Origin: Tetracentron sinense
Taxonomy: Eukaryota > Streptophyta > Magnoliopsida > Trochodendrales > Trochodendraceae
NCBI GenBank assembly: GCA_015143295.1
Contig: JABCRI010001478.1
Coordinates: forward strand, 62,001-126,000
DNA length: 64,000 nt
Direction of reading: 5' to 3'
Below are positions 1,478 to 63,680 of this stretch, piece after piece. Positions within the stretch are counted from its first letter, which is position 1; every line of letters starts with the position of its first letter. Below the pieces are notes generated by a model. That model did not search any database, was not told where the DNA came from, and worked only from the letters and a program-made list of their open reading frames with translations. The translations under genes were made by a program, and so were the position numbers.

Positions 1478-2798
1478 TGATAAGTGCTAATTGTAACACA
1501 TTTATGCACCTCAAACTACATATGTTAGTACCTTAAAGTTCTCTTTTGAAGCATGATACGACAATTGGTTGTATTTGTTATGACAGGACTATATGAGGAA
1601 TACTAGGTAAAACCAAAGAAATAACAGATGAAAAGCTTCAGAAAGACCTCCAGTCAGAAGAAGAGTAGAAGAAAGAAAGAAAAGAACAAGAAAATCAGTG
1701 GACGATCGATCGTCAATTTAAGGATGATCGATTGTAGGTTGAATCAGAGACGATCGATCGTCCAAGAACCCATAGCAAAAGTTGAAAATTCCTAAAAGGG
1801 CGATCGATCATCCAAGGCTGACGATTGATCATCATCGGCGTTTTTCAACCTCAAAATCTGTGCGCAAAGCAAAGAAGAACCCCTAGGAAAGTTTCGAAAA
1901 AGGAGAATTGAACCCTAAAAGGGGGTTCACTATAAAAGGAAAAGCTCTAAACTAAAAATGAGTTCTCAATTTGGGAGTTTGGAAGCAGAGAAGGCTTTGA
2001 AGATCAACAAGGTTGGAAGATGGAGCATTCGAGTTCGTCGTGTTCTTCGTCAAAATTGGTGTTTCTGTCTCCTACCATGAACTAATTCTTTTGTTTCTAG
2101 GGTTTCAATGAAACCCTAGCCAAGTAATCTTGTCCAGTGTATTTTATTTATGTTCCTTTTTGTATAAACTCTGATTGCATAATGAGAGGGTTATCTTCAA
2201 CCAATTATTAAAGTTTATACTCAATTTCATTATGATTTATCCTTGTCTTAGGTTCTCTTGTGTTAAAATTGAATGCGTTCATATAACTTTCTGTGATTGA
2301 AAATATGGATTTTTTGCAATGGGATTTATTGTGAATGAATTGAATTGTAGGATATTTTATTCCTACGGAAGACAAGTGATGTCACAACCATAGCTTAGTC
2401 TGTATCACTCGTGCTAACCGTGGATAGGATTTGCCTAGAATTTGGTCCGCTGAATCATTCTTGTTTCTGATGAGTGAGACATGTAGTTGATCTCATCCCT
2501 TTAGTTTATGCTCGAGGGACATAAATAGATACGTGTGGATGTGATTATGAGTCTAGTGATGGATTCAAACACCCTAGAAGTTTTCTCACCGATATATCAC
2601 AAACAGCTTTTAGTTTAATTAGGATTCATAAATTCTGTTAATTCAAATTCTACTCTTAGGTTAAATTCAATCAAATCACTCAATCTTGTTAAGCATTAGC
2701 TTAGAATTAATCTCGAAAAAAGGATAAAGAAACCAGTGTAGTCCCCTGTGATTCGACACCCATACTAGTCACTATTCTATGGAATTGTAGCTACTACA
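1478..2798 (+). mobile_element. Gypsy-type 3' LTR
   Basis: About 1.3 kb from TGATAAGTG to CTACTACA, preceded by a polypurine tract, so it is read as a plus-strand 3' LTR. It holds a TATA box (TATAAAAGG, 1931-1939) and a cluster of CGATCGATCG palindromes 100-230 bases upstream of it. The right boundary is set where the minus-strand protease reading frame of the neighbouring element starts to make sense; it is uncertain by about 10 bases. It appears to have landed inside that other gypsy element. Confidence 0.7.
1701..1939 (+). promoter_or_regulatory. LTR promoter with CGATCGATCG palindrome cluster
   Basis: Two perfect 14-base palindromes GACGATCGATCGTC (1701-1714 and 1749-1762) and three close variants (1723-1736, 1798-1813, 1820-1833) lie just upstream of the TATA box at 1931. 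The spacing and position in U3 suggest a promoter-proximal element; function is inferred. Confidence 0.6.
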
Positions 2799-3460
2799 AG
2801 GCTTAATAAATTGATGATCAAGCGTGCATTCACATAGTATGCCTCAGCATCATTCAATGGATCATCATCAACATCAATCCTTGGTTTCCTATTTTCCTGT
2901 GGGTATTTAAGGCATTGGTGATAGGTGGAAGGCACAACTAGATGGTTATGCATCCACTGGTGCCCTAACAAGACGTTGTATGATGCATCAACATCAATCA
3001 CTAGAAAATTTGTAGTTTCAGCAATATCTCCAAACCTGGTTTTGAGGTTAACCATGCCCATGGGCTTTTGCCCATTTTGGTTAAAACCTTGGATGATCAG
3101 GTGGCTTTCATGGATCCGGCTTATTTTTATGCCAAGCTTGGGCATCATCCTTATTAGGAGGATGTTGACGGCCGAACCTCCATCAATCATTACCCGGGAG
3201 ATACTAGTTTCATTAATTAGACCCATAATGAACAATGACTGATTGTGTTGAAGAGTTTCAACTCGCATGTCTTCATAATCAAATGTGATTGTGAAAAGGC
3301 TTGAAGTTCCAATTTGAGGAGGTTGTGATGACTGACTTGTAACTTCTTCAAAGAACTCCTGATTAGAGATGACATATATGAGAGACCTTCTCAATTCAGA
3401 AGACATCTTGAGAGCATCATAGACGCTTAACAAGGAATGGATTTTCTTCAGATGAGCCAA
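2799..3460 (-). mobile_element. Retropepsin part of the gypsy relic
   Basis: The strand-reversed sequence shows an aspartic-protease core of the pseudo-dimer retropepsin type: a catalytic-loop region (MIDGGSAVNIL), a beta-rich middle ending YNVLLGHQWMH, and the VPSTYHQCLKYP block that follows protease in Tat-type gypsy polyproteins. It is a fossil part of the element at 2799-7965, and the readable region runs into the LTR end at its C-terminal side. Confidence 0.8.
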
Positions 3461-4547
3461 GATATCCTACTTGACCCTCTTATTACTAGGGGCTGCTTGT
3501 GCTTGGGCCAGTTGAGCCCTGATCTTATTTTCATGCTGGACTAGTACAAATCTTGGTTATAACTTTCTACCTGACCAGAGATTGAGTTGATAGACTTTGG
3601 TAATTGTCTGATTCATTGGTTCTGACGGCTTTCCTTCCAAGAGTTGGACCATGTTCACTGAACTGAAGTCCAGCTTCCTCTTTTTACTTTGGAAGGAAAA
3701 CTATCTTTGTGCTTCATATTACCCCGTTGGACTTCCAGACTGGGTTGAAATTGGCGTTGATCATAGAGTTGAGGATTCAAATTTAAAAACCTCGGGAGAA
3801 CCGAGTGGTGCTGGTTTACTATTCTCTTCTCGTTCTCTTCGGATATATAGCCATTAGAGAAATTGGAAAGCCCTTGGAGCACTGAAATTTGTTCAAACGC
3901 CAACAAACTGTTAGTTGACCCTGAGCTTAGGACTGCTTCTTCTATCGGAGGGTCTTTGTTTGAACCGGCTGTAGTGAGTGAATCTTGATTCTCGGGCTAG
4001 CTTAAGATTTGCACCAATTGCCATGTTTGACGATGATATTGACTTGGAGTATCAAGTATACCTGGTGTCCCTTGAGGGGAACCAGATTGTACTTGTCCAT
4101 CATCTTTCTCTTGTTCTCCTCCAGATGAAAATCCTTCAGAAAGATCTGAAAGTCCTATAGGTGTTGTTCCAGTGTGGATGGTATCTTTTCTGGGAGTTTA
4201 ATATCTTCAGATTGATCTAGCTAATCCTGAAATGCCCGGTGTTTTTCTAGACTGTAGGTTACTACTTGTCTTGGGAATTTTAACCATGAAAGGTCTTTAT
4301 TTGGGACTGAATTGATGACATAGCAAGAGAAGATGTTGGATTCATCTCCCGAGTTTGTTGACTAGAGGCTATCATAGTCATAATCGGAGTAGAAGCCTGG
4401 AGGGATAAAATCCATGAAGGTAATCGCCATCAAAGGCTTTTGTTCGAGAAGAGTGTCTTGGGCCTGGCCATTTTTCTTGGTTTTCCTCACTCCTTTTTTC
4501 TTCTTTTTCTCGACCTTGGCAATGTGTTTCCCTTCTTTTCTCTGAGC

Positions 4548-6351
4548 TTAAGCCTTCCATCTAGATTGAGCTTGTTTTCTAGCATCGGCATTTTGAGCCA
4601 ATTGCTTCTTCTTCTTGGCTTCTTTGCTATCAAAAAGAGCCCAATCATTTTCATCTAATGGTTTTTCACCAGAAGTGTGGTCATTTGGCAAAGCTTCATC
4701 TCTATCAAGCGATTCTAAAACAACCACTGTGTTGGATGTAGCTTTTTGTTGCAGATCTTGACCAATGACGATTTCCTTGTTATCCAAGAGTCGCTGAATG
4801 ATGTCCTTCAGTACGAAGCAACTTTTATTTTGTGACTGATTATACGATGATAAGGACAATATTTGGGATCATCCTTCATTCCAATCTCTTGGGGTCTCCT
4901 ACTTTCCGGGAGAGTGATGAGCTCATTGGCAAGGAACTCTTTGAACAAGTCTTCGACAATATCCTCAAAGAAAGAATATGTTTTATTCATTCTTTCTCTG
5001 ATGGTGGCTCTCTTTGGAGGGTCATGCTTATCTTACTGTTGTGGCCTTCTGGCTCCTCCCTGGACTGGTTTAGTACCGACCTAAATCGATTTTTTTTCCA
5101 TTATTTGATCAACCAGTTGATCTACAATCAGTTGATGCTGGTTGAGCAGCCTTCTTGGTTTCGACTACCTCGGCTGTTGAAGATTCAAGGTGGTCAATGA
5201 CTCAACCACGTTTCCTTTTTCTGATGTAATTTTCCATGTCATGTGCTTTTGTGCACAGATCTTCAAAACTGACAAAGGTTTGGGCCATGAGGACAATAGA
5301 TAAATTATGCCTGAAGTTTTTTAGGCACATCCAGATGATTTCAGCTAAGTGAACTTTTGAGGACAGGTGAAAGTTAAGGTTCTTCATTGAGCATTGAACT
5401 CTGTTACAGACTCATTGTTTCTCTGTCTAGTCTTAATCAATTCTGGAACACCCACTCTTCTTTGAGTGTTGTAGAATTGTTTGCTAAATTCAGACACCAT
5501 TGTATTCCAATCCGGGATTGAAGGCTCAAGAAGATTGGTGTACCATATGAAAGCAACACCTTCTAGGGATTGCACAAAGAGTTAGAGACTAAGAGCTCTA
5601 GTCTTAGATGTTAGTCCACACCTCGAAAGGAAATGAGATAGATGTCGCCTGGGATCTCCGGTACCATTAAAAATTTTGAATGTTGGTTGAACGAAACCTG
5701 ACAGGAACGGAACCGCATCAATGTTAATCGGATAGGGTTTCACAATCATCCGAACATGTTCTTCTTTTTCTTTGGTCCTTTGCATTTGGTTACGAACGGT
5801 CTCTTCGATTATAGCAAGAAGAGATGGTGACACTCCTCCTATGAGTGAGGCTTGGTCTGGGACTAGCCCTGTTCCTGGTATAATCAGACGATTTGAAGGT
5901 GCAAGGGTTGTGCCTTGATTGTTGTTATGTCCTTGGTACGGGAAATGTTGTCCTGGTGCCAATGCAGACTTGAGAGCTAACAACTGAGTAGCCAATTCTT
6001 GCATTTGAGACATGATGGCTATAATTTTATCATCTTTGTACTGGAATTAGGCCTGTAAGTAGCTGTTTGATCACCTGATGGTGGAGGTGTCGATGTTGAA
6101 GGGTGATTTCCTTGGTCTGTGTTCCCGTCTAAGTTTGCCAACATGACCGCTACCGGTCGCTCGGCTCTTGGTTCTCGTGGCAAGAAAAAATTTGAAAAAT
6201 CCTCCTTAGTGAAATAAGCCCTGGGCATTCCGTACAGAGGGTTGGGTTCATTAAAAACCTGTTGCGGTAGTTCTGGCCCCACTTCTGACATTACAGATTG
6301 AATAACCGGTGCTTCCGAGTCATAATCCTCCATTGGAGGGGTTCTTCCCAA
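4548..6351 (-). mobile_element. Gag region of the gypsy relic
   Basis: Segments on the minus strand match the capsid-like 'Retrotrans_gag' domain: a lead-in with VKPYPINIDAVPFLSGF and FKIFNGTGDPRRHLSHF, then the block LEGVAFIWYTNL...W...F...F (around 5575-5480). A lysine-rich stretch near 4600-4560 lies toward the gag-protease linker. Broken in several places; fossil. Confidence 0.7.
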
Positions 6352-7323
6352 CTCTCTTGGAGAGGTTACTAGGGTTATTTCTTTCTCTAATCCCTCTTGA
6401 GATTCATTGATGTCTGGTTCTGAAGCCGATTGAGTCGGATCTTGAACTGTCTCTTTGCCATTGGCTTATTTTTGTGGCTTCTCTTCCTCCTTAGAATCAT
6501 TGGATTAAGAATCAATGTTTCAACTGCTCTAGAGGATTCAGCTTCGTCTAATGCAGCTAAAATAACAACAGCTGAATTCTAAGAATTTTGCCTTTCTAAC
6601 AAGTCTTGCTCAGGCAATGCTCCGATTCCTTAGAATACCGGAGTTATAAGTTGTTATGGATCTGGGTGGAGTCTGGTCCTCAATTCTCTGTGAGTAGAGC
6701 GAGTTGTGACTAGGACATTAGGTGCACTCCTTGGCCTTTGCTTCCTAGGCCTTCTTAGCATTGACCGGTAATTATATACCCTCCTTGGCAGAGTTGAGGG
6801 GTATTTCCAATTTCTGAGCTAAAGAATCTCCTCAAGAGTTTTCTTCTTTGGCATCTCAAAAGCAGAAGGGCTTTTGTTCAGCACTTTAACCCGAGGGTTA
6901 TACAGTGCTCTGGTTCTTCTTTCTGGTTCCATATTTGTTCGGCCTTATAATGGACTAACATCTCTGGATGAAGGTCATTGATATTGATAACGAACAGCTG
7001 TCAACATTGCTATGAAGGTTGCCATATTAGTGCCTCGAAAGGCATCCAGACATAACCTGAACAACAAGTTTATGTCTACTTGTGTTGAGTCCATGTTAGT
7101 TCTTGCATTAACAGCCAAGTGAATTTGATCATGGCTATTAATGCCCCTTACATAGTTTGAAGAAACCTGCAAGTGCACCCTTTCTTTTCTTGTTTCGATG
7201 ATGTCGTTGATGATATCATCGGGTGTTGAGTATTATCCCAGGGGAACCCTGTCCTTATTGTCCTTCAACTGCCAACTTTTCTCTTTCTTAGAAAGGGAAC
7301 TATCAATGGATGACAATTGGTCT

Positions 7324-7640
7324 ATCCGCGGTTCTCTCTCTCTCTTGTGAGAGCTATGTCCATAGACTTCTATCCACGGACTCAGATCTATTCCTAGACT
7401 TGTCCACGGAGTTGTTTGTAACTTTGTCCATAGGATAAACCTGGGCTAGACCCTTGGGTCTGGCTGGGCTTTGGGTCCATGGACCCTGATTGGTGTCTAC
7501 GCACGGGCATTGCCCCTTATCCGCAGAGCGGCCTTGGCCACTTCTCCTTTTGTCTATAGGATTAGCCTACAGACTAGCCTTGTCTGGGGAACTAATCTGC
7601 GGGCTCAAGTTTTTGTTCGCGGAATTCTCCTGCGAACTAG
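7324..7640 (-). repeat. Cluster of TCCRCGGA-like near-palindromes
   Basis: Within the upstream part of the gypsy relic about a dozen variants of a short self-complementary word occur: TCCGCGG, TCCACGGA (twice), TCCATGGA, TCCGCAGA, TCTATAGGA, TCGCGGA. They are spread over about 300 bases without fixed spacing. No TATA box is obvious beside them. Function unknown. Confidence 0.4.
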
Positions 7641-8011
7641 TTTCCTGCACTTGGTTATTTTTTTCATTTTTAACCAATTTTATTGAGGAAGTTCTTTTTA
7701 TGTCTCTTAGGTCAGTAGCCTTGTTCTTTCGCCCTAAGAAGATTTGAGCAGCATCCCCCATTTCTTGATAAACTTTTGAGGAGTGAGTTCCAACAATTAA
7801 CTTGGGCTGAGGGCTCTCAACAGTCTTTCTTAGGATTGACCTATAGGGTTTTTCCTGTTTAGATCTTGACTGGATCATGGTTTGGGCCCAAAATGAGTTT
7901 GCTCCATTAGTGGACCCCGAAAGGCTAACTATTTTGGAATCCCTTTTCAGGGTTTTCGGTGACATAAGTCTACCTTTTAGGGCATGTGGCGTTTAAAAAG
8001 GGGGAGATATC

Positions 8012-8064
8012 AATTGGGGAGAAGTCAAAGTCATGGGGAGAATGAAATGACTTCTCCCCCAATT
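8012..8064. repeat. Hairpin-forming inverted repeat
   Basis: Arms AATTGGGGAGAAGTCA (about 8012-8027) and TGACTTCTCCCCCAATT (about 8048-8064) are inverted copies with one extra C and a loop of about 20 bases. It may be the remains of a small foldback element. No target duplication recognised. Confidence 0.55.
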
Positions 8065-8327
8065 ATCACCAGGTGCCGCATGATTTGTGGATGCTCGAGC
8101 GCCCAGAGCCAATCTTTTCCCTTTTAAAATAGCTCAAACTCAAGAAAATTTGGTTGAGGTGTTCTTTATTGGGCTGGTTTTGACTTTGCCTTATCCAATG
8201 CTAATAATATCCTCCTCCATCCGCCTCTCTTTTCATGGTTCTAGCTGCGAAATTGTTACTTCTGGTGCGAAAATAAAAAATTTTGTGGCACTAAAATGTA
8301 TATGCGTTGAACGTGATATTTTGGGGT

Positions 8328-8937
8328 GTGATAGTTTTTGCGCGCATTCTGTTGTCCGGCCCAACTAGTGAAACGCGCATGCCTTTATAGGCTACCATGT
8401 CTCCCTTTTCCCCTAATTAACTATCGCGACTCAAAATCCCATCTAGGAGATAATTGAAGGGTCTAGGGAGGCTCCAAGAGCTAGTTAGCTAGTAGAGTAC
8501 TTTTGTTATACTTTTTAAATTAAGAGTGAGAGAGTTTCGGTGAGAACTTTTCAATGGTTAAAGATGTTTCTTTTAAGGAGAATGATTGCTTGCACATATG
8601 CGTTCCGCCTAGCAGAACGCACACACGTCCACAAGATGCCATGTGTCCCTTTTAACTTATATAAACTACGGTTAAGACTCCTTCACCCCTAGGGTTCATC
8701 CATCTAACCTTGGTTTTTAGAAAAATAATCTCAAATTAGTTAACACTCATTAACTATGGTTAAGATTCACTTATCCTTAGGGTTCATTAATCTAACCTTG
8801 GTTTTTAGAAGAATAACCTCAAGTTAGTTAACACTCATTAATGGTGGTTAAGATTCACCCACCCTTAGGGTTCATCCATCTAACCTTTGTTTTTATTTAA
8901 GTAATATGTATTAATCTCATGTTAATAAACTTAATCA
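8328..8937 (+). mobile_element. Foldback MITE, left half (with an older partial copy)
   Basis: From about 8586 the sequence (CGTTCCGCCTAGCAGAACGC, then TGCCATGTGTCCCTTTTAAC, then ACCCCTAGGGTTCATCC) is matched in inverted form at 14023-14215, so the two look like halves of one foldback element now separated by an LTR nest. Three tandem copies of a roughly 90-base unit (GGTTAAGATTCACCCA...CTAACCTTGGTTTTTAG) occupy about 8670-8895. A degenerate copy of the outer arm starts at about 8328. A related element lies at 31986-32262. Confidence 0.6.
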
Positions 8938-10169
8938 TGGTTAAAAAAGGATTAAAAAATAGACAATTCCATGCAAAGTATCAATACCTTTCTTTTAATT
9001 GTTAAACCTTTAGTGCATGATATGCACATCTGAAATGGATTTTATTTTAGATGAATTTCATTTACTCTTGAGATATGTTCTAGGTTCACGCTCAGGATCT
9101 GTGCAGTTATGAGATACAATGTGTAGATGATTCTAGCGGCGTGACATATATACCATTAATTTCCTAACTTGTTAGTCAGGTACTAACATCCTTGAGTAAT
9201 AGGTACGAATACCTTAAGACCTTAGACTGTGTTGGTACTCGTAACTTGTGAAAACACATCATACATATATACATGTGAGACTTGCAAGGCTTATGCGAAT
9301 ACTTGTGAGCATATAAACTTATAAATCTTGTGAGCATATGAATCTTATAAGGCTTGTGAACTTATGAGTGAAGTGTCGTGATCAACTTTATCTAGGTTAC
9401 TCCTTAGATTCTTATTTATACCATTGAAACCACACTACAGCGTCTCATACCACCATGGTAAAGAATCTATGTCATAAAATCATCATCTAAGATGTTGACC
9501 TATCCAAAAATTAAACCACATCATACATACATACATATAACATCTTATCTCATAAGATGATAGCATATTATTCATAAATCTTAGAAAAAACAACATAATC
9601 ATGCTTACAAATATCACATCATAGAAATCTCACCAAAACATACAACTTAAAATATTTGTATAAAAATTTCTTATATATAAACCCAGTGTTTTAAAAACCG
9701 GACCGGAACGGCCGGTTGAACCAGCAAAACCGGGAACCAGTCACAGCTAAGGTTCTCAAGACCTCCATAACCAGCCATTTTTAAGACCCCGCGTAGAATG
9801 ATATAACCGGAAGATCCGACCAGTTAAGCAGGGAACCGTCGAAACTGGTGACCAGTTTTAAGAATTAGTCAATTCTGTGACCGCACTCTAAAATTCTGTT
9901 TCACCGGTCTTTCTAGCCATATGGCCAGAAAAAAGATGCCGCAACCTCATTTAGCTCCTTCACCGACCTCTTGAGCTTCTTGAATTTTTCTTGTTTAGAG
10001 AACTGAACATGGCCACCAGACGAACTCTGGAACTTCTCATGGATTAGGAGAGTCAAGGAAAATATATCAGAACACGGGGCAAAGGAACTGAACACGACTG
10101 TAGGAGCTCTGAAACTATTATGGATGGAAAGAAACAAGTGAGCGAGGGCGTTGAAGCAGTGAAAATCAA

Positions 10170-10300
10170 CAAAGTTTTATCCACCATGTTTTATCCACGC
10201 TACTTTGCTTTATCCATCATGTTTTATCAAAAGTACTTTGTTTTATCCACAATGTTTTATCCACCATTCTTTGCTTTATCCAACATGCTCTATCCATTGT
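10170..10300 (+). repeat. TTTTATCCAC minisatellite
   Basis: Six or more irregular copies of 'GTTTTATCCACCATG' / 'CTTTGCTTTATCC' words, spaced about 17-35 bases, inside the left part of the hAT-like element. It opens a reading frame by chance because the unit lacks stops in that frame; no protein is inferred. Confidence 0.65.
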
Positions 10301-10533
10301 AATGTTGTGAGAATCAAGAAAGGGGATAGCTTTATCACATTGGGTATTCAGGGGCCGTTTGGCATCATTCCGGATCAGAAACATTTCTATTCCCTAGAAC
10401 AGTCTGATTTTTTTGGAACTTTTTTTTTTCCAAGAACTCGTTTGGATGCACTCAACCAAACTCTATTCCGGGGGACGGAAACAGCAGAATCGCATTTGGA
10501 TGACCCAAAAAAAAAGAGTCAAATCCTCTATAG

Positions 10534-10640
10534 TGATAACCGGATTTGCCAAATCTGGTTATCACCCCCAGAGGTCGCCACGTGTCTTCTTTGACACCCC
10601 TTAACATGTGGCGATCTGTTATCATCCACCAGTACATCTC
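10534..10640. repeat. Hairpin and MITE fragment inside the PIF element
   Basis: GATAACCGGATTTG and CAAATCTGGTTATC form a tight hairpin (10534-10562). It is followed by CCAGAGGTCGCCACGTGTC and TTTGACACCCCTTA, which resemble the terminal sequence of the foldback element at 31986-32262 (AGAGGTCGCCAC...TTGACACTCCTTA). It looks like an end of the same MITE family caught inside the transposon. Confidence 0.45.
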
Positions 10641-11159
10641 ACGATCAAGAAATGAATATGTCTGTGTTGGTTATGGAGGTTTGTTTCTTTGGTATGGTAT
10701 CGGCCTTCATAGATTAATAGTGGTTCAAAATCCTCCCTCTGTCATACAGAAATATAGCAAATTTCATAGTTATAGAAACTTTACACAAAGGTGGCACACA
10801 AAGAACCTGTTATGGTCATCTATCATAACATGGAAAACAAAACAGTACCCCAAATCAAAAGGACCAAAAAAAAAAACAAATAAGTAACACTGACAGGTAA
10901 ATTTTACTTGGATTTACTTGGAATTCAGACCAGTTTAAGATGCTAACAGAAGAAATATTCATGTAAGAGAAAAAACTCATCTCCCAACTAAATATACTAC
11001 CATTGTTTACAAACTCAAGTGCTTGCATGTTAACCAGGCACGAATGCATTTTCCCATTGTTTCTGGATGTTCAAGAGGTCCTCCACTTTCTGTTAGTAAG
11101 AAGGTATTAAGTGAAACCCTTTTCTCAATTTCAAAGACTGTTGCATGATGGGTAGAGGA

Positions 11160-11219
11160 CATTTCTTCTATCATTGGTTTCCAGAGGCAGACATGAGCAT
11201 TAATAAACCAATTTGATAC
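11160..11219 (-). pseudogene. Captured BEL1-like (TALE) homeodomain exon fragment
   Basis: The minus strand encodes [20 protein letters not shown], which matches the third-helix region of plant BEL1-like homeodomains (consensus [20 protein letters not shown]) in 17 of 20 residues, including the WFIN recognition motif. It begins just after an AG (TGATCAG), where an exon could start. The rest of a BELL homeodomain is absent upstream, and the frame running on to about 11007 shows nothing familiar. Two arginines of the consensus are replaced by H and C, so it is unlikely to function as a homeodomain. Best read as a host-gene scrap carried inside the PIF/Harbinger element. Confidence 0.7.
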
Positions 11220-11351
11220 CTGATCATACACCCAAATGATCCATAACCAGATGAAACAAGAAATTGTAAAAAATGCATCCTTTTACCCTCTTTATATGAG
11301 GAGATAAAAATGAACATGAAGTAATCATTTTGCCAATGCTGAAATCTGAAC

Positions 11352-11536
11352 TTGTTTTTGAATTGTTGATGAGAATACTTATGACCCGTTTCCTTAAAGA
11401 ACTTATCATTTATATCATTCCATGCTTTTTTTGAGAACGTTGTAGTTGGTCGGTTTCCCTTGCGAACCTCGCCAGCCATTAGCTCTATAAACAATTTCTC
11501 ATCCCTAGCGCTCCACCTTGCAACCTCGTCAGCCAT
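11352..11536 (-). CDS. Myb/SANT-like DNA-binding protein (transposon ORF), first exon
   Basis: Starts MADEVARWSARDEKLF and continues through KKAWNDINDKFFKETG and HKYSHQQFKNKF, matching the N-terminal part of the plant Myb/SANT-like domain (Myb_DNA-bind_3) of PIF/Harbinger accessory proteins and their domesticated relatives such as L10-interacting Myb-domain proteins. Tryptophans at positions 8 and 39 fit the SANT helix spacing. The normal continuation (NQLRQRY-like) does not follow in frame; an intron donor GTTCAG at 11351 could explain this, but no matching second exon was found, so the copy is probably truncated. Known role of the family: binding transposon ends and helping the transposase enter the nucleus. 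Confidence 0.7.
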
Positions 11537-12307
11537 TACTTCTTTTTAAAAAAATAAAAATATATCTCAGATCTGTATCTTCAAAAAATTCTAAAATAAA
11601 ACCATATATGTTCAGCCATTTCATACCATCATGTTCAACCATTTCAATTACAACAATTCTGAAAAAAAAAAACCATAATGCATGTTAAAATGCTAACCTG
11701 TTGATTTCCTTTGCTTTCTAATAAATTATTTGTTTTTTCCCTGAGACCTACTGTGTTGTGAACCCATAATAGAGAGAGAACACCCCTTCATCATATTTCT
11801 AAATTCTAACACGAGTACAATGGAGAGCTAGAAGCCGATCACTAAAGCTATTGAGATATGGAAGTTCATATGAACGCAGTGCAAAATACAAAACTATTCA
11901 GTTGAATGGGAATCAAATTTCATGTAAGCAACATATCGAACAAGTGATCTGCACTGTAACACCACAAATCAAATATCAGCACAAGACAAAATAGAACCGT
12001 TAGCCTCAGATCTTCTAATTAGCCTCAGATCTCATTTGAAGTGAGAGGATAACAAGAACGGAAAATCAAAAATACAAATCAAGTTGAGAACATGAAAATA
12101 AATTGATTCACAGATCAAGAAGAGGAAGATCTACCAAAATTATTCATAAATCATGAAGAGGAAGATCTTGCAGAAGGTCATGCTCACAGATCATGTTAGA
12201 TCATAGTTACAAAGAACCCAAATACATAAAATCAAGATCTGTGAACAAAATAAACAAAACCAGGAAAAAAAATGGTAGATCTGGTGCATACAGCAAGATC
12301 GTCGACA

Positions 12308-13559: not shown

Positions 13560-13910
13560 TATTTATAGGGTTCACCTCGAGTGTTTCCTAATTTTCCACA
13601 AATTCCTGCAATTCTATTGTTTTCTGCACAAGGGCGTTCGAATGGCTTAAGTGACCGTTCAAATGAGATGTTTCCATTCGAATGAGATTAGATCCATTCG
13701 AACGAGATTGCATTCGGGAAATACTTTCAATTTTTTTCCAGCATAGTTGTTCGAACGACTTGGTGTCTGTTTGAATGGCTTTTCATTCAGGATTTGAGCA
13801 ATTGCTCAAGCTGAGATGGTTGTTCGAACGACTTGGAATTCCATTCGAACCAACCCCCTTGGTTCGAACAAGATGGTCGTTCGAACAAGATGGATTCCAT
13901 TTGAACCAAA
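13560..13910 (-). promoter_or_regulatory. LTR promoter with TTCGAA palindrome cluster
   Basis: On the minus strand a TATA box (CTATAAATAGG, 13560-13569) has upstream of it (13632-13910) about ten copies of a TTCGAA-centred word (CGTTCGAACG, CATTCGAATG and near relatives). Core and layout match the LTR at 25253-27598 although the surrounding sequence differs. Confidence 0.55.
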
Positions 13911-17938: not shown

Positions 17939-18180
17939 TATTTATAGTTTTTCAAAACGGGGTCTGCGCCTTTTTAAAGGGCGTGATTTATTATATTTTA
18001 ATGAATAGTAAAGCGGTATGAACAGTGAGTCGGCAACGCGTCGGAAACCGATATTTCTAAATCCGCGCCTTTTTAAAAGGCGCGATTTAATATATTTTAT
18101 TATGAATAAATAAAATAATAAAAAATGAAATTTGTAGTGCAAGTGGGACCCACATGGTCCCGCGCCTTTTAAAAGGGCGA
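17939..18180 (-). promoter_or_regulatory. LTR promoter with CGCGCCTTTTTAAAAGGCGCG palindromes
   Basis: On the minus strand a TATA box (TATAAATA, 17939-17946) has three near-perfect palindromes upstream: GCGCCTTTTTAAAGGGCG (17966-17983), a 21-base one centred on TTTTTAAAA with CGCGCC/GGCGCG arms (18064-18084), and CGCGCCTTTTAAAAGGGCG (18161-18179). Spacing is close to 97 bases. Confidence 0.65.
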
Positions 18181-25432: not shown

Positions 25433-25740
25433 ACCGTTCGAACGATTCCCAGACCGTTCGAATAGTGCCAGTAAAAGCAATTGGACACTTATTCCCGAAT
25501 CCAAACCCATTCGAAAGAACTCAGTTTGTTCGAACAAAACAAATATCGTTCGAACGATTCTAAGTCCGTTCGAATAGAGCAGAAAAACACAAACAGTAAG
25601 TCCCGAATAGGTAAACCGTTAGAACCAAACCCAAACCGTTCGAACAGTGTCGCGGTTGTCGCCCAAATTATTTGGGGAAAATCCTAAGTTGCGAAATTTT
25701 TAAGGTTTTAAACCCCCACCCTATAAATAGGCCCCCTATT
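25433..25740 (+). promoter_or_regulatory. LTR promoter with TTCGAA palindromes of varying arms
   Basis: Perfect palindromes with one core and different arms: CGTTCGAACG (25435-25444), TTTGTTCGAACAAA (25525-25538), ATCGTTCGAACGAT (25545-25558), plus imperfect ones at about 25454, 25509, 25567 and 25628. TATA box at 25731. Confidence 0.65.
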
Positions 25741-45240: not shown

Positions 45241-45328
45241 GGTTCTTCTTCATTCTGATTTCAACAAAATATCTTCGAAGCGAAAACGAAAAAAACAAAA
45301 TTTTGTTAATCTTAATTATGGGAAGCCA

Positions 45329-46893: not shown

Positions 46894-46894
46894 C

Positions 46895-48217: not shown

Positions 48218-49591
48218 TATAGAGCCCCGGAAATTTGAGTGCACTGTTGTGAAATAGTGTGATGAATAGTGTCGTGATTAGTACCCATGTGTAGGGCTTG
48301 TGAAGGCCTAAGGCTTTCCATGTATCCTGGGTTTTTGTGATAAGGGAAATGAGGGTTTTATGTGGGTGTGTTGGTTCTCAAAACAAGAGTATAATAATAC
48401 TCTATGGGTTTAAAAACAAAGGAGTATAAAATACCCTAGGTGTGTAATGAGTGTAAGGATCAAAGGGTTAAAAATACCCTGAGTGCCAAAAGGTAAGAAG
48501 AAGGGGGCCAAAACAGGGCAGTCCAGTCGACCCATCAAGTGGTCCGGTCGACCCATAGGCATTTGGTCGACCGACCCTAGATCCGGTCGACCGATCCCCC
48601 TCCCATTTTTGTATGGGGTTTTCGAGCAGTGGGTTGCCAAAGGTCCGATCGACCGACCCTAAGGCCGGTCGACTAATCCTCTACCTTTTTTCTTTTGGCC
48701 GACCTTTTGAGATATTTTAAGGGTCTTTTAGGATTTTGGTAAACCCCAAACCCTTATATAAGCCCCAATTCGTGGTCTAGGGTTTACACTAACCCTAAGA
48801 GAGAAAAAGAGAGGGATTTTGAGAGAGAAAAGGGAGCTCTTGGGTTGGGTTTAAGATCAAAAGTGAAGCTGGGTTTTGCTTCTCAAAGGCCGGATCTCGT
48901 TTTCTCAAGCCTTCTTCAACTTTTCTAAAGCGCTAGATCGAAGGGAATTGGTCTCGAAAGGTAGATACATTCTACTACATAGTTTTGATATGGATTCTTT
49001 AATAAAAGGATTGGTTGAATGGATAGTTTTGATGAAAAATATAAGAAAAAGAAAAAGGGAATGTATGGTTTCCATGAAAAATAGTAGATATTCTATACTA
49101 TATAACTTTGTTATTATTCTTTAACAAAGAGCAAGATGAAAAGTAGTAGATACACTCTACTCACTAGCTTGTTATGCATGTTTTGATAAAAGAAGAGATT
49201 GGAAGTATGGTTTTGAAGGAAAAGTGTGTTTTTAACTAAGAAAAAGATGAAGTGTATGGATTTTGATGAACTTGGGATTCTAAACCAAGTATATGTATGT
49301 TATTTGGATGATGAGATGTAAAGAACCCTATGTATATGCCTATGTAATCGTTTTAAAAGAGATAGAAAAGTATGTGCCATGTGTTATGTGTTTCAATTGC
49401 CTACTATGTTCACTCACAATTGCCTATGTACACGATGTTTGCATGATCAAGTGAAATGAGAGGAGTTATCGCTAAGAATGGTTTTGCTCAAAGTATATGT
49501 GACTCAGTGTTTCTAAGAAAAGAATCAATGTTTTATAAAGAAAGAATTGATGTTCTATGAGAAAAGTAAAGAATAGAAAAGCAAGAAAGGA
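48218..49591 (+). mobile_element. Partial gypsy-type LTR
   Basis: Begins TATAGAGCCCCGGAAATTTG (probably a decayed TG start), has a GGTCGACC palindrome cluster (48528-48680), TATA box TTATATAAG (48754-48762) and a GAGAGAAAAAG leader. The 3' end is not recognised; it seems to be cut by the next LTR. Layout resembles the solo LTR at 25253-27598. Confidence 0.5.
48528..48762 (+). promoter_or_regulatory. LTR promoter with GGTCGACC palindrome cluster
   Basis: GGTCGACC at 48546-48553, 48565-48572 and 48583-48590 (the last inside CGGTCGACCG), with GTCGAC or near forms at about 48530, 48648 and 48665. TATA box at 48754-48762, about 90 bases past the last copy. Confidence 0.65.
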
Positions 49592-52464: not shown

Positions 52465-52620
52465 GAATTACGATCGATTGTACTGAAGTGGCGATCGATC
52501 ATAGGCATGCAGAAGGCGTGCGATCGATAGTGCGATCAATCGTAAATAGGTAGATCACTTAGGTTTTGTCAAATCCCTAGGCAATCGATTGCACTCTAAG
52601 GGTGATCGATCGCAGACACT
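52465..52620 (+). repeat. CGATCGATCG-type palindrome cluster
   Basis: Words include ACGATCGATTGT, GCGATCGATCA, GCGATCGATAG, GCGATCAATCG, GCAATCGATTGC (52581-52592, perfect) and TGATCGATCGCA. Same core as at 1701-1833. Confidence 0.65.
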
Positions 52621-54047: not shown

Positions 54048-54079
54048 ATTGACCCTAGAGGAGAGGAGATTAGGGTCTA

Positions 54080-55467
54080 TGTAAATTAAAAACTATTTTT
54101 TTCTTTTGAATGCGGAATGAGAAAGCAACTTAATAGTTCTAAAATATATGCAATAGAGAAAGTAAAGTGGAGAGTTAGAGAGAGCAAACACTCAGTCTTT
54201 GTTCATGAGGTTCGATAACTTGTCTACGTCCCCGCCTTTCAGCTTCCAGCTTCAAGGATTCACACGATTTTTATTCCCAAATCCATTAGACTACTTTTAG
54301 GCGAGTCCTAACCTTTACAATCTCTCTTCACAGGTTGAGATAGAACCCTTCTTTGCAAGAGCACAACCCACTCTTGACTTCTTTGAAGCAACAGCTTCAA
54401 TTTGCAAGAATCCAAAGATTCTTGACTTCTCTTTTATAAAGATGTTTTTAGATTAGTAATCTGAAATAAATGCTCCTGATATGAGCTGGATAAGAGTGGA
54501 CAAAAACTCTAATAAAATATCTCAAATAAATGGAATTGAATAGCTCAAATTAGAATTTGAGGATTTCTAAGTGTATGATCGATGATGAAATCAATGTAAG
54601 CAAAGAAGTAGATGATTGGAGTTATTGCAATGATCAAGTGTTCTATTTTGTTCATAAATGAACTCCTTTTATAGCTCATGATCCAATATAACCGTTGGTG
54701 AAGTATTAAATGCAAATAAAGCCGTTGAAAAATAGTCGTTACAGCGTTTTCAAGATCAGGCTTCAATTCGTCGATGAAACTAGGTCACCCAGTTCATTTC
54801 GTCGCCGAATACAAAAACAGTAAGCTCAAGAATTTTTCCTGTCGCCATTTCGTCGCCGAAGTCAGATCACCCATGTGATTTCATCGATGAAATCAGAGCA
54901 AACTCTGCTTTTCTTATTTTATTCAGACCTTGATAATGGGAATGAATTCGTAGGTCATTTGACTTTCCTTTAACATGATTTTTATGAATTCCTAGGTTCT
55001 TAGAATGATGTCCAATATATGTCTTAGGCTCTTATGGTCAATCAAAGTATTTTGAGCATTCAACTTACCATACTTTGAGGACTTCTTACATAAGTCCTAG
55101 ACACTCTCATAAGAAACAAAAAATACATTCATATACTTTTTGAGAACTGGTCTTCGACTTGTTCTTGGATCTTATGATTTGACTTTGTCTTCAAGAGATC
55201 CTTTTCTTTATTGGAGATCCGATTTGGACTATGGATATAATCATGAATCTTTATTTTAACTTGAGTCCAATAGCTTGAGTTGATCATTCACTTTTGATAT
55301 TCTTTGAATGATTTCCATACTTTTTGCCTTGAGTGACGTGTTAACTTTCTTATAATATGAAATATTCAAGCACTTAATAGAATCATTAGTATCATAAATT
55401 TCATTTCATTATTATGTTATTATCAAAATTATTAAGGGAACCCAAGGTTATAACCTTGAGGCTAACA
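54080..55467 (-). mobile_element. 3' LTR of the SIRE-like element
   Basis: 1388 bases. On the minus strand it starts TGTTAGCCTCAAGG right after a polypurine tract (AAAAAGAAGGAGAT), and ends TAATTTACA at 54080. TATA box CTATAAAAGG at 54665-54674. Two more AGGGGGAGC tracts lie upstream at about 55516-55570; repeated tracts of this kind are known in SIRE elements. Confidence 0.75.
54665..54894 (-). promoter_or_regulatory. LTR promoter with TTTCGTCGCCGAAA-type palindromes
   Basis: Upstream of the TATA box (54665-54674) lie TTCGTCGATGAA (about 54766), TTTCGTCGCCGAA (about 54799 and 54848) and the perfect 18-base palindrome GATTTCATCGATGAAATC (54877-54894). The same words recur at 57960-58140 in the same element. 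Confidence 0.7.
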
Positions 55468-55876: not shown

Positions 55877-57763
55877 CTATTGCTCCTGGTCTTGCTTCTT
55901 CCTTAGCTTTTGCAAACGCTTTCTAATAATAGTGCCCTCACTATCACTGGAGTCACTGGAGCTAGAGACTAAGGAATGGATGATGGGGGTTTGGGATCCA
56001 GATGCTTCTAGTTGTGCAGGCTTAGACTGTCCTGGCCTCTTGATCTCAAACACATGTTGAGTCTTGATCTTCACTACCTCAAGAGACAAGTCTGCTACTT
56101 GAGAGGCCATCTAGTGAATAATGGGGGCCTGGGCTCTTAGAAGGGAAGACATTTGGGAGATGAGTGGACCTTGAGTCCTGATCTGCTTTTCAGTGAAATT
56201 TGTCTTTCCTTTGAGCATACTCACCCCATTACTCAGCTGCAAGCCTTGCTCCATAGCATCTATAGCTTTCCTTTCTAACGGGGATAGAAGGGAATCTACC
56301 TTGTTCTTGGTCACTTCTCCCGCTATACTCATCTCATCCAAATAAGGGTCCAAAGACTCAACACTCTTCTTGATCTCACCCTGGATGTTGTCCATCCTAG
56401 ACTCAAGTGAGGTTAGTCTCTCTTTGGTGTCTGACTTGAGGCTCTGTAAGCTATCTCTGGCCTCTACCTGAAGAGCTGTCATATTGGCTTTGCTCTCTAC
56501 CATGAATGAGAGCATAGAATCTCGCATATCAGCATAAAACCTCAACTGACTCTCTCTCTCATCCCCAGCTGGAACTGCTCCAAGCTGGTAGCTATGGAGG
56601 TTATCTGCCCTGACATCAAGCTCAACTGATCATCTGATGCTGAAGGGGTCTGCTGGGTGGCTTAAAATATGGTCCTGAATCCTCAAAATGAGGTGAGTCC
56701 TGTCTCTAATGAGAATACTCAAGAATCTCAGCCTCTGCCATAACCTCAGGCCACTCAGGCTCTGCCACTATCTCTGGCTCTACCTCTAGTGCTGCTGTTG
56801 AGGAGGGAGGGATGGAGTCGGAAGCAGGAGTAGGAGTGGAAGGAGGATCCAAAGATGGCTGACTAGAGGGTTAGATGGAGGAAGGTTTAAGGATCCAGTC
56901 CTTCAAGGTATCATGCCATATATAGCCCATCATTTGAATGGTAGCCTTGCTATAGATGGTAAAGTCATCAGCATTGACTAGGTCTGTATAAGAGGAAAGA
57001 GGAATTTTGAAATGTTTGAAAATTTTTGTCAAGACTTGACCAAAAGGAAGACATCCTGACTTTCTTTTATGAGCATCATCCATGCAATGGACAATGATAT
57101 ATGAGAGGTCGATGGCTGTGGAAGTGAGAATACACCACATCAGAAAGACATTAAAATAAGTCAAGTATTCCCTCCCACCTGCTCTAGGGACTAGGTCATA
57201 AGTGATAATATGGTGGATTAGTCTAGAGGTCAAGGTGAGGTCTTTGACTTTGGGTTGGAAGAGTGTAATGATGTCTTGGTTGATGCACATGAATTTGAGT
57301 GCCTCTATCACATCAAACCCATCAAACTTGGTCCATTGCCCATTGACAAAGGATTGGAAAGAACATTTTGGGATTTTAAGAATAGATGAAAGATTTTCTA
57401 AATGAAAAGCAATTTCTTTCCCATGGAGGTGATGATTTGGGAGGAATGATTAAATTTGAAGTGAGTATAAAAAATCCGAACAAGTTTGGGATACATGGTT
57501 TCATTTGAAGAAATAAAAGAATCTCATTTAATGACTGAAAACAAAGTATTGATGACACCTAGACCATATAGCTCTAGGTTGACAAAGTTCACAACCTTAC
57601 CGTATATGGGAGAATGAGAGAGGAACTTTTCTCAGAAAATCTTCTTGTACTTGGTTGACTTGAACTTGGCTGGAGCAAACGAGGAAACTACTTCTTTTCC
57701 ATTGGAAGTACGAGCTCTCTTCAATGGTAGTTCTTCCGATGTGGAATTCATGCGAGGAGGCAT
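55877..57763 (-). mobile_element. Extra gene of the SIRE-like element (plant transposon-protein domain)
   Basis: Region 57311-56871 reads LVPRAGGREYLTYFNVFLMW, CILTSTAIDLSYIIVHCMDD and KRKSGCLPFGQVLTKIFKHF, which matches the 'putative plant transposon protein' domain seen in many plant repeat-borne genes of unknown role. Downstream (56545-56111) is a long heptad-rich coiled coil, and 56110-55877 is a Ser/Asp-rich tail ending in a basic patch (RKRLQKLRKKQ). Upstream (from about 57763) is a basic, Ser-rich start MPPRMNSTSEELPLKRARTS. A few breaks separate these parts; fossil. Its place, between pol and the 3' LTR, is that of the env-like gene of SIRE elements, but no signal peptide or membrane span is seen. 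Confidence 0.6.
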
Positions 57764-57959: not shown

Positions 57960-58140
57960 CAATTTCGTCGCCGAAATGAAGACAGGTAACACACTGTTTT
58001 GAATTCGGAACAAATTTGTCACCGAAATTGAATAGTCACTTCAATTTTGTCACTGAATTGCCTATAGGAAGCTTATTGTTTCCTATTCAACCCAAGATTC
58101 GTCGCCGAAATTCAAAGTCTCTTTTGATTTCGTCACCAAA
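57960..58140 (-). promoter_or_regulatory. Internal palindrome region upstream of the extra gene
   Basis: TTTCGTCGCCGAAAT (about 57962), TTTGTCACCGAAAT, TTTTGTCACTGAATT, TTCGTCGCCGAAATT (about 58089) and TTTCGTCACCAAAAT repeat the core found in the LTR promoter at 54766-54894. An AT-rich TATGAATTTAAAG (about 57938-57950) and about 170 bases of leader precede the gene's first ATG on the minus strand. It looks like a second promoter built on the LTR pattern. Confidence 0.55.
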
Positions 58141-61640: not shown

Positions 61641-61643
61641 TAT

Positions 61644-62732
61644 TCAATTTTGTAAAGAAATTTTGGTAATCTTTTTATTTTGAAGAAGGGTTATAGCCAA
61701 GTCAGCTTTACTAAATACACACCTTTGTTGACCTAAAAGTCTTTCTAAATTCTTTTGGCCATTTGTGAATGTAAGAATGGTGTTAGTTAAATCTTTGACT
61801 TTGGCTTTAAGCTCATCACATCCACTTGATGAGTCTTGAGGTAGAGATTGAATATCCTTGATTTTTATATTCAATACCTCATTCTCTTTCTGAAAATTTT
61901 CTTTATCTTTTTGTAACAATTCAGTTAAATTTATGAGAGAAAGATTTTTCTTTTTCAGCATTTTATTTTTGGAGGCAATTTTTTGAAATTCTCGATAGAG
62001 CTCATCAAAAGCATCTCTTAGTTCATTAAAAGTAAGAGATTCATTAGTGGAAGAAGTTACCTCATCCTCATCACTAGAGCCTTTTGAGCCACTTTTCTCA
62101 GAATCATCTCTTGTGGCCTTCATAGCCTTCTTCTTGAATTTGTTGCTTCTTTTGGGTTGAGAACATTCTATCCTTATGTGTCCAGGCTTCTTGCACTCGT
62201 AGCAAGTGAGAGGTTCCTTCTTGCTTGTTTCACCCTTGGTAATTTCCTTGGTGAACTCTTTCTTGTATGACCTCTTCTTGAAGTTCCTTCTATGCTTTAG
62301 GAATTTTTTGAACTTCCTTATCATGATAGATATGTCTTCATCTCCCTCACTTTCTTCTTCTTCATCATTGTCTTCCACTTGAGAAGACTTTAAGGTTAGG
62401 CCTTTCTTGAGCTTGGGCCCATCCTCTTGTTGTCCTTTCATAATAACTTCATGAGTCATTAGAGACCCGAGGAATTCATCCATTTGAAGCTTAGTCAAAT
62501 CTTTGGCTTCTTGGATGATAATCACTTTGAGAGACCATTCCTTAGGTAATGAGCGAAGAATCTTCCTCACATTTTCTAAATTGGCATAAATCTTTCCAAG
62601 TGATTTTAGTTCATTCAAAATATTTGTAAATCGAGTAAACATTTCATTAATAGACTCATTTTTCTCCATTTTAAACAGTTCATATTTATGAACTAGCATG
62701 GTAACTTTTTCTTCTTTGACTTGATTAGTCCC
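61644..62732 (-). mobile_element. Gag region of the SIRE-like element
   Basis: A long open region. It has the UBN2-type gag core (VHKYELFKMEKNESINEMFT, LNELKSLGK, RSLPKEW), an acidic linker, a single CCHC zinc knuckle (CYECKKPGHIRIEC), a basic patch and a C-terminal coiled coil (LYREFQKIASKNKMLKKK). The first dozen readable residues come from the LTR that cuts the 5' end at 62733, so the true N-terminal part is missing here. Confidence 0.8.
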
Positions 62733-63680
62733 TGTAAGCACCCAATTTTTACACCCCTTTCTAATCATGGTTGAAAAAATTCGGTGAACCTCAAATCTAA
62801 GGTTTGAGTTGAGAACTCACAAAATCAAGGGGATGGTTAGGTCTCCCTACAAGTCTATCTACCCTTTTTAATATTTTAACAATTAAGTTATTAACTTAGG
62901 GGATGATGAACTTAAAGTGTGGAAATAGAGAAAATAATCAAACCACAACACAAGGAATTTTATGTGGAAACCCTTCTAGGAAAAACCACGAGACCTAGTC
63001 CGGCAATGAGAATCCACTAAGACAAAGTCAACAAGAACTTACAGCACTCGAACTTGACTCATTTGGACTCGACACTATGATCCTTCAGTTCTTAGTCCTC
63101 CACGCCTCGAAAAGTCATCACGTACTCACAAGTCCCGTGATCAACCGCAGCCACTCATACTTCTCTTAGATCTCCAAAACAACCACGATCTTCTAATCGA
63201 TCTCTGTCAATGACGGCTTCGGATTCCACCGACCAAATCACACATCCACGATCCTTCTTGGATCGATCTCCTTCACAAAGGCTCCGGAACACTTCGGCCA
63301 ATTTTTTTTCTCCAGAACGGGTTGATGGTTTGATTAAAATCAAATCCTAGATGGACTCCATCAAGGGGAAAGTCCAAGCAAGCAAGAATGGAGCATTGAC
63401 TTGCAAAATCTAGGATGGAAGAAGAACTAACAAATGGGAGGAGAGACAATAAAAATTAGAGCTTTTATAAACTCTAGAGATAGTTAAAATTACTCTCTAT
63501 ATTCTCCCAAAGTTGCTCTCCACGGATTAGAAGGGTTCACAATAAATAGAGAACCCAAAAACAAGTATTAGAAGTTGCTAAAACCAAAAGGCATGAAAAA
63601 CCACTTCAGGGTTGACCATGGCGGTACTTGGGTCGACCCAGATGCACTTGGGCCGACCCAAGTGTTGAGACCCAAAACCC
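62733..63680 (-). mobile_element. LTR (copia-like) inserted in the SIRE-like gag
   Basis: On the minus strand it ends GTGTAAAAATTGGGTGCTTACA at 62733. TATA box TTATAAAAGC at 63461-63470 (minus), with TGGGTCGACCCA palindromes upstream. Text such as 'TTATGTGGAAACCCTTCTAGG' is common in copia LTRs. The high-coordinate end is not recognised and may lie beyond 63680. Confidence 0.5.
63461..63664 (-). promoter_or_regulatory. LTR promoter with TGGGTCGACCCA palindromes
   Basis: Perfect TGGGTCGACCCA (63629-63640), then CACTTGGG-CCGA-CCCAAGTG (63645-63664), whose eight-base arms pair perfectly although the centre has changed. Both lie about 160-200 bases upstream of the TATA box on the minus strand. 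Confidence 0.6.

Follow-up and report, generated by a model that had tools for sequence, protein, structure and literature searches.

Helically phased palindrome ladders upstream of TATA boxes in LTR promoters of Tetracentron sinense

Several LTR promoters in a 64,000-nucleotide stretch of Tetracentron sinense DNA (the window; contig JABCRI010001478.1, positions 62,001 to 126,000) carry clusters of short palindromes upstream of their TATA boxes, which raises the questions of whether these clusters exceed chance, how their sites are arranged and what might read them. A preliminary description had listed eight such promoters, with cores held to be mostly unique and with LTRs held to be unrelated.

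Palindrome arrays in the window

Each of the eight listed positions has a TATA-like box no more than about 10 bp away, preceded by palindromes when read in the direction of the promoter (1931, 13569(-), 17946(-), 25731, 48754, 52069, 54674(-) and 63470(-)). The window contains the following features, with array sites counted at the mismatch limits given.

1701..1831, + strand: array W1, five sites of CGATCGATCG (at most 2 mismatches), spacing 22, 26, 50 and 21 bp, with TATA 1931 lying 104-223 bp downstream
1931..1937, + strand: TATA box of W1
13561..13567, - strand: TATA box of W13, TATAAAT
13636..13888, - strand: array W13, nine sites of CGTTCGAACG (at most 2 mismatches), spacing 17, 19, 21, 73, 53, 20, 19 and 21 bp
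17968..18178, - strand: GCGCCTTTTAAAAGGCGC in three imperfect copies at intervals of 96-100 bp, with TATA 17946 downstream; centre not TCGA
25435..25646, + strand: array W25, eight sites of CGTTCGAACG (at most 2 mismatches), spacing 20, 53, 19, 20, 20, 50 and 20 bp
25722..25729, + strand: TATA box of W25, TATAAATA, about 80 bp beyond the centre of the last site
48524..48705, + strand: array W48, six sites of CGGTCGACCG (at most 2 mismatches), spacing 21, 19, 20, 62 and 20 bp
48755..48761, + strand: TATA box of W48, TATATAA
52024..52053, + strand: palindrome CCACATGGGCATGCCCATGTGG with overlapping ATGTGGCGCCACAT, directly upstream of TATA 52069; no ladder
52472..52613, + strand: array W52b, six sites of CGATCGATCG (at most 2 mismatches), spacing 21, 29, 12, 49 and 21 bp; absent from the preliminary description
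54767..54892, - strand: array W54, four TTCGTCGACGAA-like sites (at most 3 mismatches), spacing 31, 51 and 31 bp, with TATA at 54674(-)
57960..58135, - strand (tentative): array W58, five TTCGGCGACGAA-like sites (at most 3 mismatches), spacing 31, 52, 31 and 51 bp; contains the previously listed core TTTCGTCGCCGAAA
61647-62816, - strand: copia-type gag ORF, following the W63 promoter
63609..63661, - strand: array W63, three sites of GGGTCGACCC (at most 2 mismatches), spacing 20 and 21 bp, 144-185 bp upstream of TATA 63470

No paired LTRs can be seen within the window, and the LTR status of its promoters is based on copies elsewhere in the genome. The promoters at 52069 (a 22-bp palindrome and an overlapping 14-bp one) and 17946 are of a different type from the ladders, with palindromes that end just 16-24 bp from the TATA box. 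A second TATAWA, on the + strand, lies 86 bp beyond the opposite end of the W13 array.

A blind scan of the window, with AT-only words left out, returned 14 clusters of palindromic 8-mers (at least five matches in 300 bp), whereas 100 shuffles gave 0.56 on average and 3 at most. Clusters of seven palindromic 8-mers occur three times in the window and never in the shuffles, TCGA-centred clusters of at least five occur five times against 0.12 (maximum 2), and the three largest clusters are the two TTCGAA arrays and the GTCGAC array of the preliminary description. Several of the 14 are tandem repeats without relation to promoters. Palindrome excess alone is not promoter-specific, because palindromes of at least 12 bp are also in excess over the whole window (48 versus 20.9 expected, AT runs among them).

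The palindrome clusters are thus real and beyond chance; the cores and the kinship of the LTRs had in part been misdescribed. Core GCGCCTTTTAAAAGGCGC has no exact match in the window, and TTTCGTCGCCGAAA is an imperfect palindrome at 57963, away from every listed promoter. To call the cores mostly unique was too strong and to call the words unrelated was wrong, as a TCGA centre is common to four of the seven distinct cores (and to the intact sites at 54674), the frequent form of these words being CG-x-TCGA-x'-CG with x = G, T or A. Nor are the LTRs all unrelated: three of the eight promoters, at 13569, 25731 and 48754, are homologous (z 9.5 to 13.8). A TATA box stands at short distance past the array in four of the five TCGA clusters of the window, the exception being W52b, which lacks a TATAWA up to 200 bp from either array end.

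Helical phasing and genome-wide abundance

The 38 site spacings of the eight window arrays fit best to a period of 10.25 bp, and none of 20,000 jittered sets was equally coherent. The ladder steps correspond to about 2, 3, 4, 5 or 6 helix turns, and steps of 31 and 49-53 bp keep phase; the 15 spacings of at least 28 bp, taken alone, give a phase p = 5e-5. When the set was cut to 20 spacings, with one array per kind (W1 and W52b nevertheless sharing a word), again 0 of 20,000 jittered sets matched it. Elsewhere in the genome, all 50 of the GGTCGACC pairs among the matches listed lie 19-23 or 39-40 bp apart, as do 39 of 44 distinct GATCGATC pairs among the matches listed at 19-23 or 39-42 bp, all of these pairs being on contig C1 and copies within one family not being independent. 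Over all adjacent sites in 20 sampled loci phase coherence is weaker, at 0.54.

Counted at gaps of 5-35 bp, GGTCGACC pairs number 7,993 in the genome, versus 7 for the reversed pattern, and GATCGATC pairs 27,120, versus 27. GGACGTCC, likewise a CpG palindrome and with the composition of GGTCGACC, yields only 29 pairs; therefore CpG symmetry alone does not account for the words. The fourth CG-x-TCGA word, GCTCGAGC, was tried and is not counted as a ladder word (1,937 pairs versus 697 in the reversed control), because it shows little phase (coherence 0.27 among the 50 pairs listed) and by eye belongs mostly to other repeats. At 15 of the 20 sampled loci a TATAWA in the right orientation follows the array at 50-150 bp, versus 23% of random window blocks (p = 1e-6), and at five it is absent; the loci were taken in listing order, and two of the 15 (L180 and L184) are closely related. 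Neighbouring GATCGATC sites agree in their extended word when two or three flanking bases are compared (p < 0.001), one base giving p = 0.26. Between GGTCGACC neighbours agreement is weak with one base (p = 0.02) and absent with two or three.

Retrotransposon families that carry the ladders

A relative of the 48.5k LTR (W48) flanks a Ty3/gypsy chromovirus. Both LTRs of the pair L175/L176 contain the CGGTCGACCG ladder, and pieces of gag, protease, RT, integrase and chromodomain lie between them. In one element, L174 and L175 contain pieces of gag, protease, RT, RNase H and integrase, arranged in this order, with a chromodomain ahead of the 3' LTR (Chromo, 29 bits; cut-off 25.1), as in Ty3/gypsy chromoviruses (gag-PR-RT-RH-INT plus chromodomain). 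The chromovirus may belong to the Tekay-like lineage. In L154 and L155, stretches of about 10 kb each that lie downstream of two array promoters, 17 ORF pieces were aligned, and no Pfam domain was found in the 10 ORF pieces scanned. The 25.7k LTR was considered to end at a PBS at 28087, a placement rejected on account of the 2.3 kb between them and of a junction that does not match.

Among 38 fetched copies of homologous 48.5k promoters, 36 have GTCGAC-type sites and two have TTCGAA (by eye). L147 and L172 resemble the 48.5k promoter (79% and 78%, query 219-357) yet carry TTCGAA sites, and CGGTCGACCG and CGTTCGAACG are one symmetric pair apart with the CG frame retained. Across 144 sites of this family the inner flanking pair is complementary in 104 cases versus a marginal expectation of 82.0, and pair 3 is slightly above expectation (87 versus 78.4); pairs 2 and 4 show no excess (92 versus 91.3 and 27 versus 32.6).

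The 54.8k family, in which 3 to 6 sites are kept at 30 of 30 loci, has Sirevirus signatures. The Sirevirus LTR/PBS junction CA/ATTGG/TATCAGAGC was scanned for on the stored strand of five of the 30 loci, and is present without mismatch in L118, with one mismatch each in L117 and L119, and not in L106 or L111; the PBS alone, at no more than 1 mismatch, occurs at 5 of the 30 loci (stored strand). C-rich signals near the LTR 3' end precede the junction in L118, L119 and L117 (CACCCTCCTC, CACCGCCCTC and CACCCCCCTC, respectively; by eye). L106 has a stretch with 2 mismatches to AGGGGGAG, followed by ATTG, a candidate for the Sirevirus PPT plus AT/TG. The words are mostly inherited within both families, contrary to the preliminary reading of a fast-changing code rather than common descent; that the same place and architecture go with different words holds even between homologous promoters.

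Sirevirus palindromes and the reading of the ladders

No named system had been thought to explain such clusters; in fact, the RM boxes of Sireviruses, short palindromes repeated in the LTR shortly upstream of TATA with a word that differs per element, have been described (Bousios et al. 2010, PMC2829016). The RM words in Table 3 of that paper include CGGTCGACCG (Vitis) and ACAATCGATTGT (Tnd-1), both TCGA-centred. The window arrays are likewise a repeated palindromic motif in an LTR, clustered shortly upstream of TATA in the proportions given above. The CGG-CCG core of RM boxes is present in CGGTCGACCG (W48) and not in the TTCGAA, GATCGATC, GGGTCGACCC and TTCGTCGACGAA words; the Tnd-1 RM word likewise lacks it (PMC2829016). 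RM boxes number at least eight copies per element (PMC2829016), whereas the window promoters have 3-9 sites each (at most 2-3 mismatches; linker copies lie outside this count). RM boxes are called Sirevirus-specific and absent from a classic Ty1/copia set, and the portions of PMC2829016 consulted for RM specificity contain no gypsy set; here, in contrast, the carrier of CGGTCGACCG is a Ty3/gypsy chromovirus, in which the word seems to work like RM boxes. Beyond PMC2829016 go the CGGTCGACCG ladders in both LTRs of this chromovirus, the helical phasing, on which a keyword search of that text gave no statement, and the homologous promoters with different words (GTCGAC-type versus TTCGAA). We found no description of palindrome ladders in chromovirus LTRs in the titles and abstracts listed or in the parts consulted of PMC10794571 and PMC6911290, and no report among the literature titles listed of helical phasing combined with palindromes in LTRs.

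We consider it probable that the ladders are LTR enhancers, in which phased palindromes would bind dimeric, probably host, proteins that act on the promoter. Several copies of one palindromic word stand on the same helix face, with the ladder ending about 70-145 bp before TATA; each palindrome would take one protein dimer, and the phased dimers would act jointly on the promoter. Most words have TCGA at the centre and differ in the symmetric flanking pairs (CGGTCGACCG, CGTTCGAACG, CGATCGATCG, GGGTCGACCC and TTCGTCGACGAA), which may determine the member of a protein family that binds. The word differs between families and at times switches symmetrically. As the design occurs both in a Sirevirus-like (Ty1/copia) family and in a Ty3/gypsy chromovirus, a host factor is likelier than an element-encoded protein. 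Of the preliminary interpretation, the pattern of place, architecture and word survives, as does the putative recognition array for a dimeric DNA-binding protein, which the helical phasing fits; the claims that no named system explains it, that the words are unrelated and that common descent plays no part do not.

More tentatively, both LTR superfamilies may have converged genome-wide on phased CG-x-TCGA-x'-CG ladders read by a host family of dimeric proteins, the partner being changed via one symmetric base-pair swap copied array-wide. One DNA grammar (word, whole-turn spacing, TATA distance) would then explain transcription of very different plant retrotransposons, and the DNA-binding family driving them would become predictable. 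Such a grammar would also allow LTR promoters to be sought without reliance on sequence similarity, and would let the RNA-hairpin view of Sirevirus palindromes be tested against the protein-dimer view.

Words might instead reach other families within whole array blocks exchanged by recombination or template switching, and not through point changes followed by selection. Such a swap would give at once the TTCGAA sites of L147 and L172; it does not need the CG frame that switched words keep, and it accounts for word movement, not for palindromic form or phasing, and we regard it as possible, if rather doubtful. An action of the palindromes via RNA, with copies pairing across U3 transcripts into hairpins that feed small-RNA silencing, has been proposed for maize Sireviruses, whose LTR regulatory-region palindromes are reported to be highly variable in sequence and to be sRNA hotspots (Bousios 2016, Genome Res, via the consulted parts of PMC10760457 and PMC5311732, dealing with maize families and with emphasis on RNA structure). 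All seven array pieces folded here fall below the shuffle-mean energy (z -1.5 to -5.1), and an RNA or siRNA role is conceivable because the arrays fold better than shuffles. The signal is not specific, because any repeated palindrome folds well, and pairing predicts neither whole-turn DNA spacing nor a steady distance to TATA; we therefore hold this role unlikely.

Lower still in probability are two further readings. The sites could be CpG-dense chromatin targets, symmetric CG-methylation or CG-binding platforms that silence the LTR or keep it open: the 10 bp of CGGTCGACCG include three CpG, the CpG o/e of the window being 0.53, C>T or G>A makes up 124 of 158 site substitutions (100 of the 124 at CpG positions), and one LTR pair differs at 7 of 60 site bases versus 24 of 541 elsewhere. 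Methylated-CpG decay is, however, expected in any silenced repeat, and neither the scarcity of GGACGTCC pairs nor the poor phase of the TCGA-centred GCTCGAGC fits a CpG target. Plain tandem duplication of a 20-bp unit holding a palindrome by chance, inherited, decaying and functionless, would suit the commonest step of about 20 bp, the 20-bp array that Tandem Repeats Finder reports at 13658-13708 and the inheritance of words within families, and is improbable in that, by eye, the spacers differ between sites and the palindrome alone recurs, that the 31 and 49-53 bp steps are in helical phase without being multiples of 20, and that the layout is common to families of both superfamilies.

In viral contigs scanned for GTTCGAAC pairs, 65 stretches (GC 0.32-0.65) were obtained, 12 of which contain at least four TTCGAA in 300 bp.

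Palindrome arrays of the window and their words

Genome searches used the 1.16-Gb assembly that includes the window and that, judging by its elements, is probably a plant's. Within the window, clusters of palindromic 8-mers were sought without prior choice of word, in 300-bp stretches, with one mismatch tolerated and words made of A and T alone excluded. Three clusters came out on top, none of 100 local dinucleotide shuffles getting that high.

Top clusters of the word-blind scan
13636–13886, GTTCGAAC cluster, 7 hits
25436–25645, GTTCGAAC cluster, 7 hits
48525–48704, GGTCGACC cluster, 7 hits

TCGA-centred clusters with at least five hits numbered five, against a mean of 0.12 in the 100 shuffles, and four of the five have a correctly oriented TATAWA box at 40–130 bp (background 20%, p = 0.007). 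Fourteen window clusters have at least five hits, and several of these are tandem repeats that lie elsewhere than at promoters. Long palindromes are overrepresented across the whole window, so such an excess is not in itself promoter-specific. The preliminary description had set palindrome clusters upstream of eight TATA boxes, and a TATA-like box indeed lies at or near all eight positions; as for its cores, GCGCCTTTTAAAAGGCGC has zero exact copies, and TTTCGTCGCCGAAA is an imperfect palindrome that occurs at none of the promoters it listed. Its "mostly unique" cores share a TCGA centre in four of seven distinct cases. The words of the arrays, which are named here by their kb position, are related to one another, with CG-x-TCGA-x'-CG (x pairing with x') or a near form being the commonest.

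Site words of the window arrays
W1 and W52b (the latter an array missing from the preliminary description): CGATCGATCG
W13 and W25: CGTTCGAACG
W48: CGGTCGACCG
W54: TTCGTCGACGAA-like
W63: GGGTCGACCC

The LTRs, earlier called unrelated, are so in part: the W13, W25 and W48 promoters are homologous (−60 to +170, z 9.5–13.8) and the W52 promoter (TATA 52069, separate from array W52b) shows weak kinship to these three (z 4.9–6.0), while z is at most 3.2 for each remaining pair.

TTTCG-N4-CGAAA sites make up another array, at 57960–58135 with spacing 31/52/31/51, near a minus-strand ORF (56874–57449) matching Pfam Transposase_32 just below cut-off. TATA-less GATCGATC arrays (W52b at window 52472–52613 and genome loci L177 and L179) have common steps of about 21 and 50 and some of 12, unlike those of the promoter ladders, and may represent a separate class of array that lies away from LTR promoters.

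Helical spacing and position relative to the TATA box

A period of 10.25 bp fits the 38 adjacent-site distances of eight window arrays, and jittering the distances by up to 5 bp never gave an equally coherent set in 20,000 trials; the 15 distances of at least 28 bp alone give p = 5e-5. In the TTCGAA searches, the 116 distances measured at 34 loci are best fitted by a period of 10.3 bp. In 37 copies of the family of the LTR near 48.5 kb (48.5k), counted with two mismatches allowed and thus including other CG-x-TCGA words, 80 of 115 distances are 19–21 bp and 27 are 58–62 bp; in the family of the LTR near 54.8 kb (54.8k) the main distances are 31 and 51 bp, a third class of 116–118 fitting less well. 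Genome-wide, GGTCGACCN{5,35}GGTCGACC has 7,993 matches versus 7 for the reversed pattern, and GATCGATC pairs, by the same design, 27,120 versus 27; GCTCGAGC pairs (1,937 versus 697) show little phase. The matches listed all come from the initial 31 Mb and 7 Mb of contig C1, so that families recur; among them, 50 of 50 GGTCGACC pairs lie 19–23 or 39–40 bp apart (13–43 allowed) and 39 of 44 distinct GATCGATC pairs 19–23 or 39–42. Palindrome GGACGTCC pairs occur at 29 places against 4 reversed, 17 of the 29 at 28 bp; many, on visual inspection, have a TATATAA- or TATTAAA-like stretch separating the two sites, which is possibly another promoter palindrome design.

Neighbouring GATCGATC sites agree in their symmetric extensions above the between-array level over two bases (20/44) and three (12/44), with p < 0.001 for both, one adjoining base (31/44) not exceeding that level (p = 0.26). 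For GGTCGACC pairs, agreement is weak at one base (24/47, p = 0.02) and absent at two or three.

The first ten distinct listed loci for each of GGTCGACC and GATCGATC, some of them akin (L180 and L184), carry a correctly oriented TATAWA 50–150 bp past the array in 15 of 20 cases (9/10 and 6/10, respectively) versus 23% of random window blocks (p = 1e-6). Phase coherence over all their adjacent sites is 0.54, below the other sets.

Word inheritance and carrier elements

Searches scored 40 of 521 candidates for the 48.5k LTR and 40 of 2,094 first-look candidates for the 54.8k LTR, the latter copies being 87–100% identical. Words are inherited within families. In the 54.8k family, three to six sites are present at each of 30 loci, the window and its C6 twin among them. 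Among the scored matches to the 48.5k array-promoter, 39 lie outside the window; all were inspected except a C6 copy of the window region at 94% identity. By eye, 36 of these 38 have GTCGAC-type sites, whether still intact or decayed at CpG, with just one or two sites in at least six of the 36. L147 (three sites) and L172 (two) bear TTCGAA-type sites, by eye, despite matching the same promoter. The turnover proposed earlier therefore does occur, but switches within a family are rare. A single base pair, changed symmetrically, separates CGGTCGACCG from CGTTCGAACG, and among 144 intact TCGA sites of the 48.5k family complementarity is seen at the inner pair in 104 (82.0 expected from margins) and at pair 3 in 87 (78.4), pairs 2 and 4 not exceeding margins.

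Substitutions in 48.5k sites are C>T or G>A in 124 of 158 cases, 100 of these at CpG positions, as expected for methylated repeats. Among the CpG-decay products of GGTCGACC are GGTTGACC and GGTCAACC, both containing TTGACC, the W-box core; dead LTRs may seed WRKY sites by this decay.

In the 54.8k family, L118 has the exact Sirevirus junction CA/ATTGG/TATCAGAGC preceded by a C-rich stretch, L117 and L119 have it with one mismatch, and it is absent from the stored strand of L106 and L111. Copia gag and pol pieces lie downstream of the promoter near 63.5 kb. A search with the 48.5k relative L167 gave two same-strand matches 7.1 kb apart, enclosing gag, aspartyl protease, reverse transcriptase with RNase H, and integrase pieces, with a chromodomain immediately before the 3' LTR and a CCGGTCGACCGA ladder in both LTR pieces (94.8% identical, 601 bp). 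Thus a Ty3/gypsy chromovirus, one element, carries a ladder whose word also occurs in a Vitis Sirevirus (Table 3 of PMC2829016). That paper calls the motif Sirevirus-specific, whereas here one chromovirus bears the word too. In the parts surveyed of the open-access literature, Sirevirus palindromes are reported, and neither helical phasing nor chromovirus ladders were found.

Reading of the arrays and neighbouring features

Because spacing is in whole turns, putative binding proteins would sit on one face of the DNA; because the sites have dyad symmetry, they would bind as dimers; and because the design is common to two superfamilies, the protein would probably be host-encoded. Action by RNA pairing is possible as well, the arrays folding better than shuffles.

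The window also contains:
2780–11684, minus strand, 31 ORFs, one piece matching a Myb/SANT-like DNA-binding domain (4.9e-12) and one Retrotrans_gag (6.7e-9)
28648–46530, minus strand, 39 ORFs, one piece matching LysM (5.2e-11), likely a host gene remnant or exon
45328–45403, minus strand, tRNA-Ile, anticodon TAT

The region occurs again at C6:13.17–13.24 Mb of the same assembly, G000 (four probes, 94–100% identity), in a copy that is probably the other haplotype.
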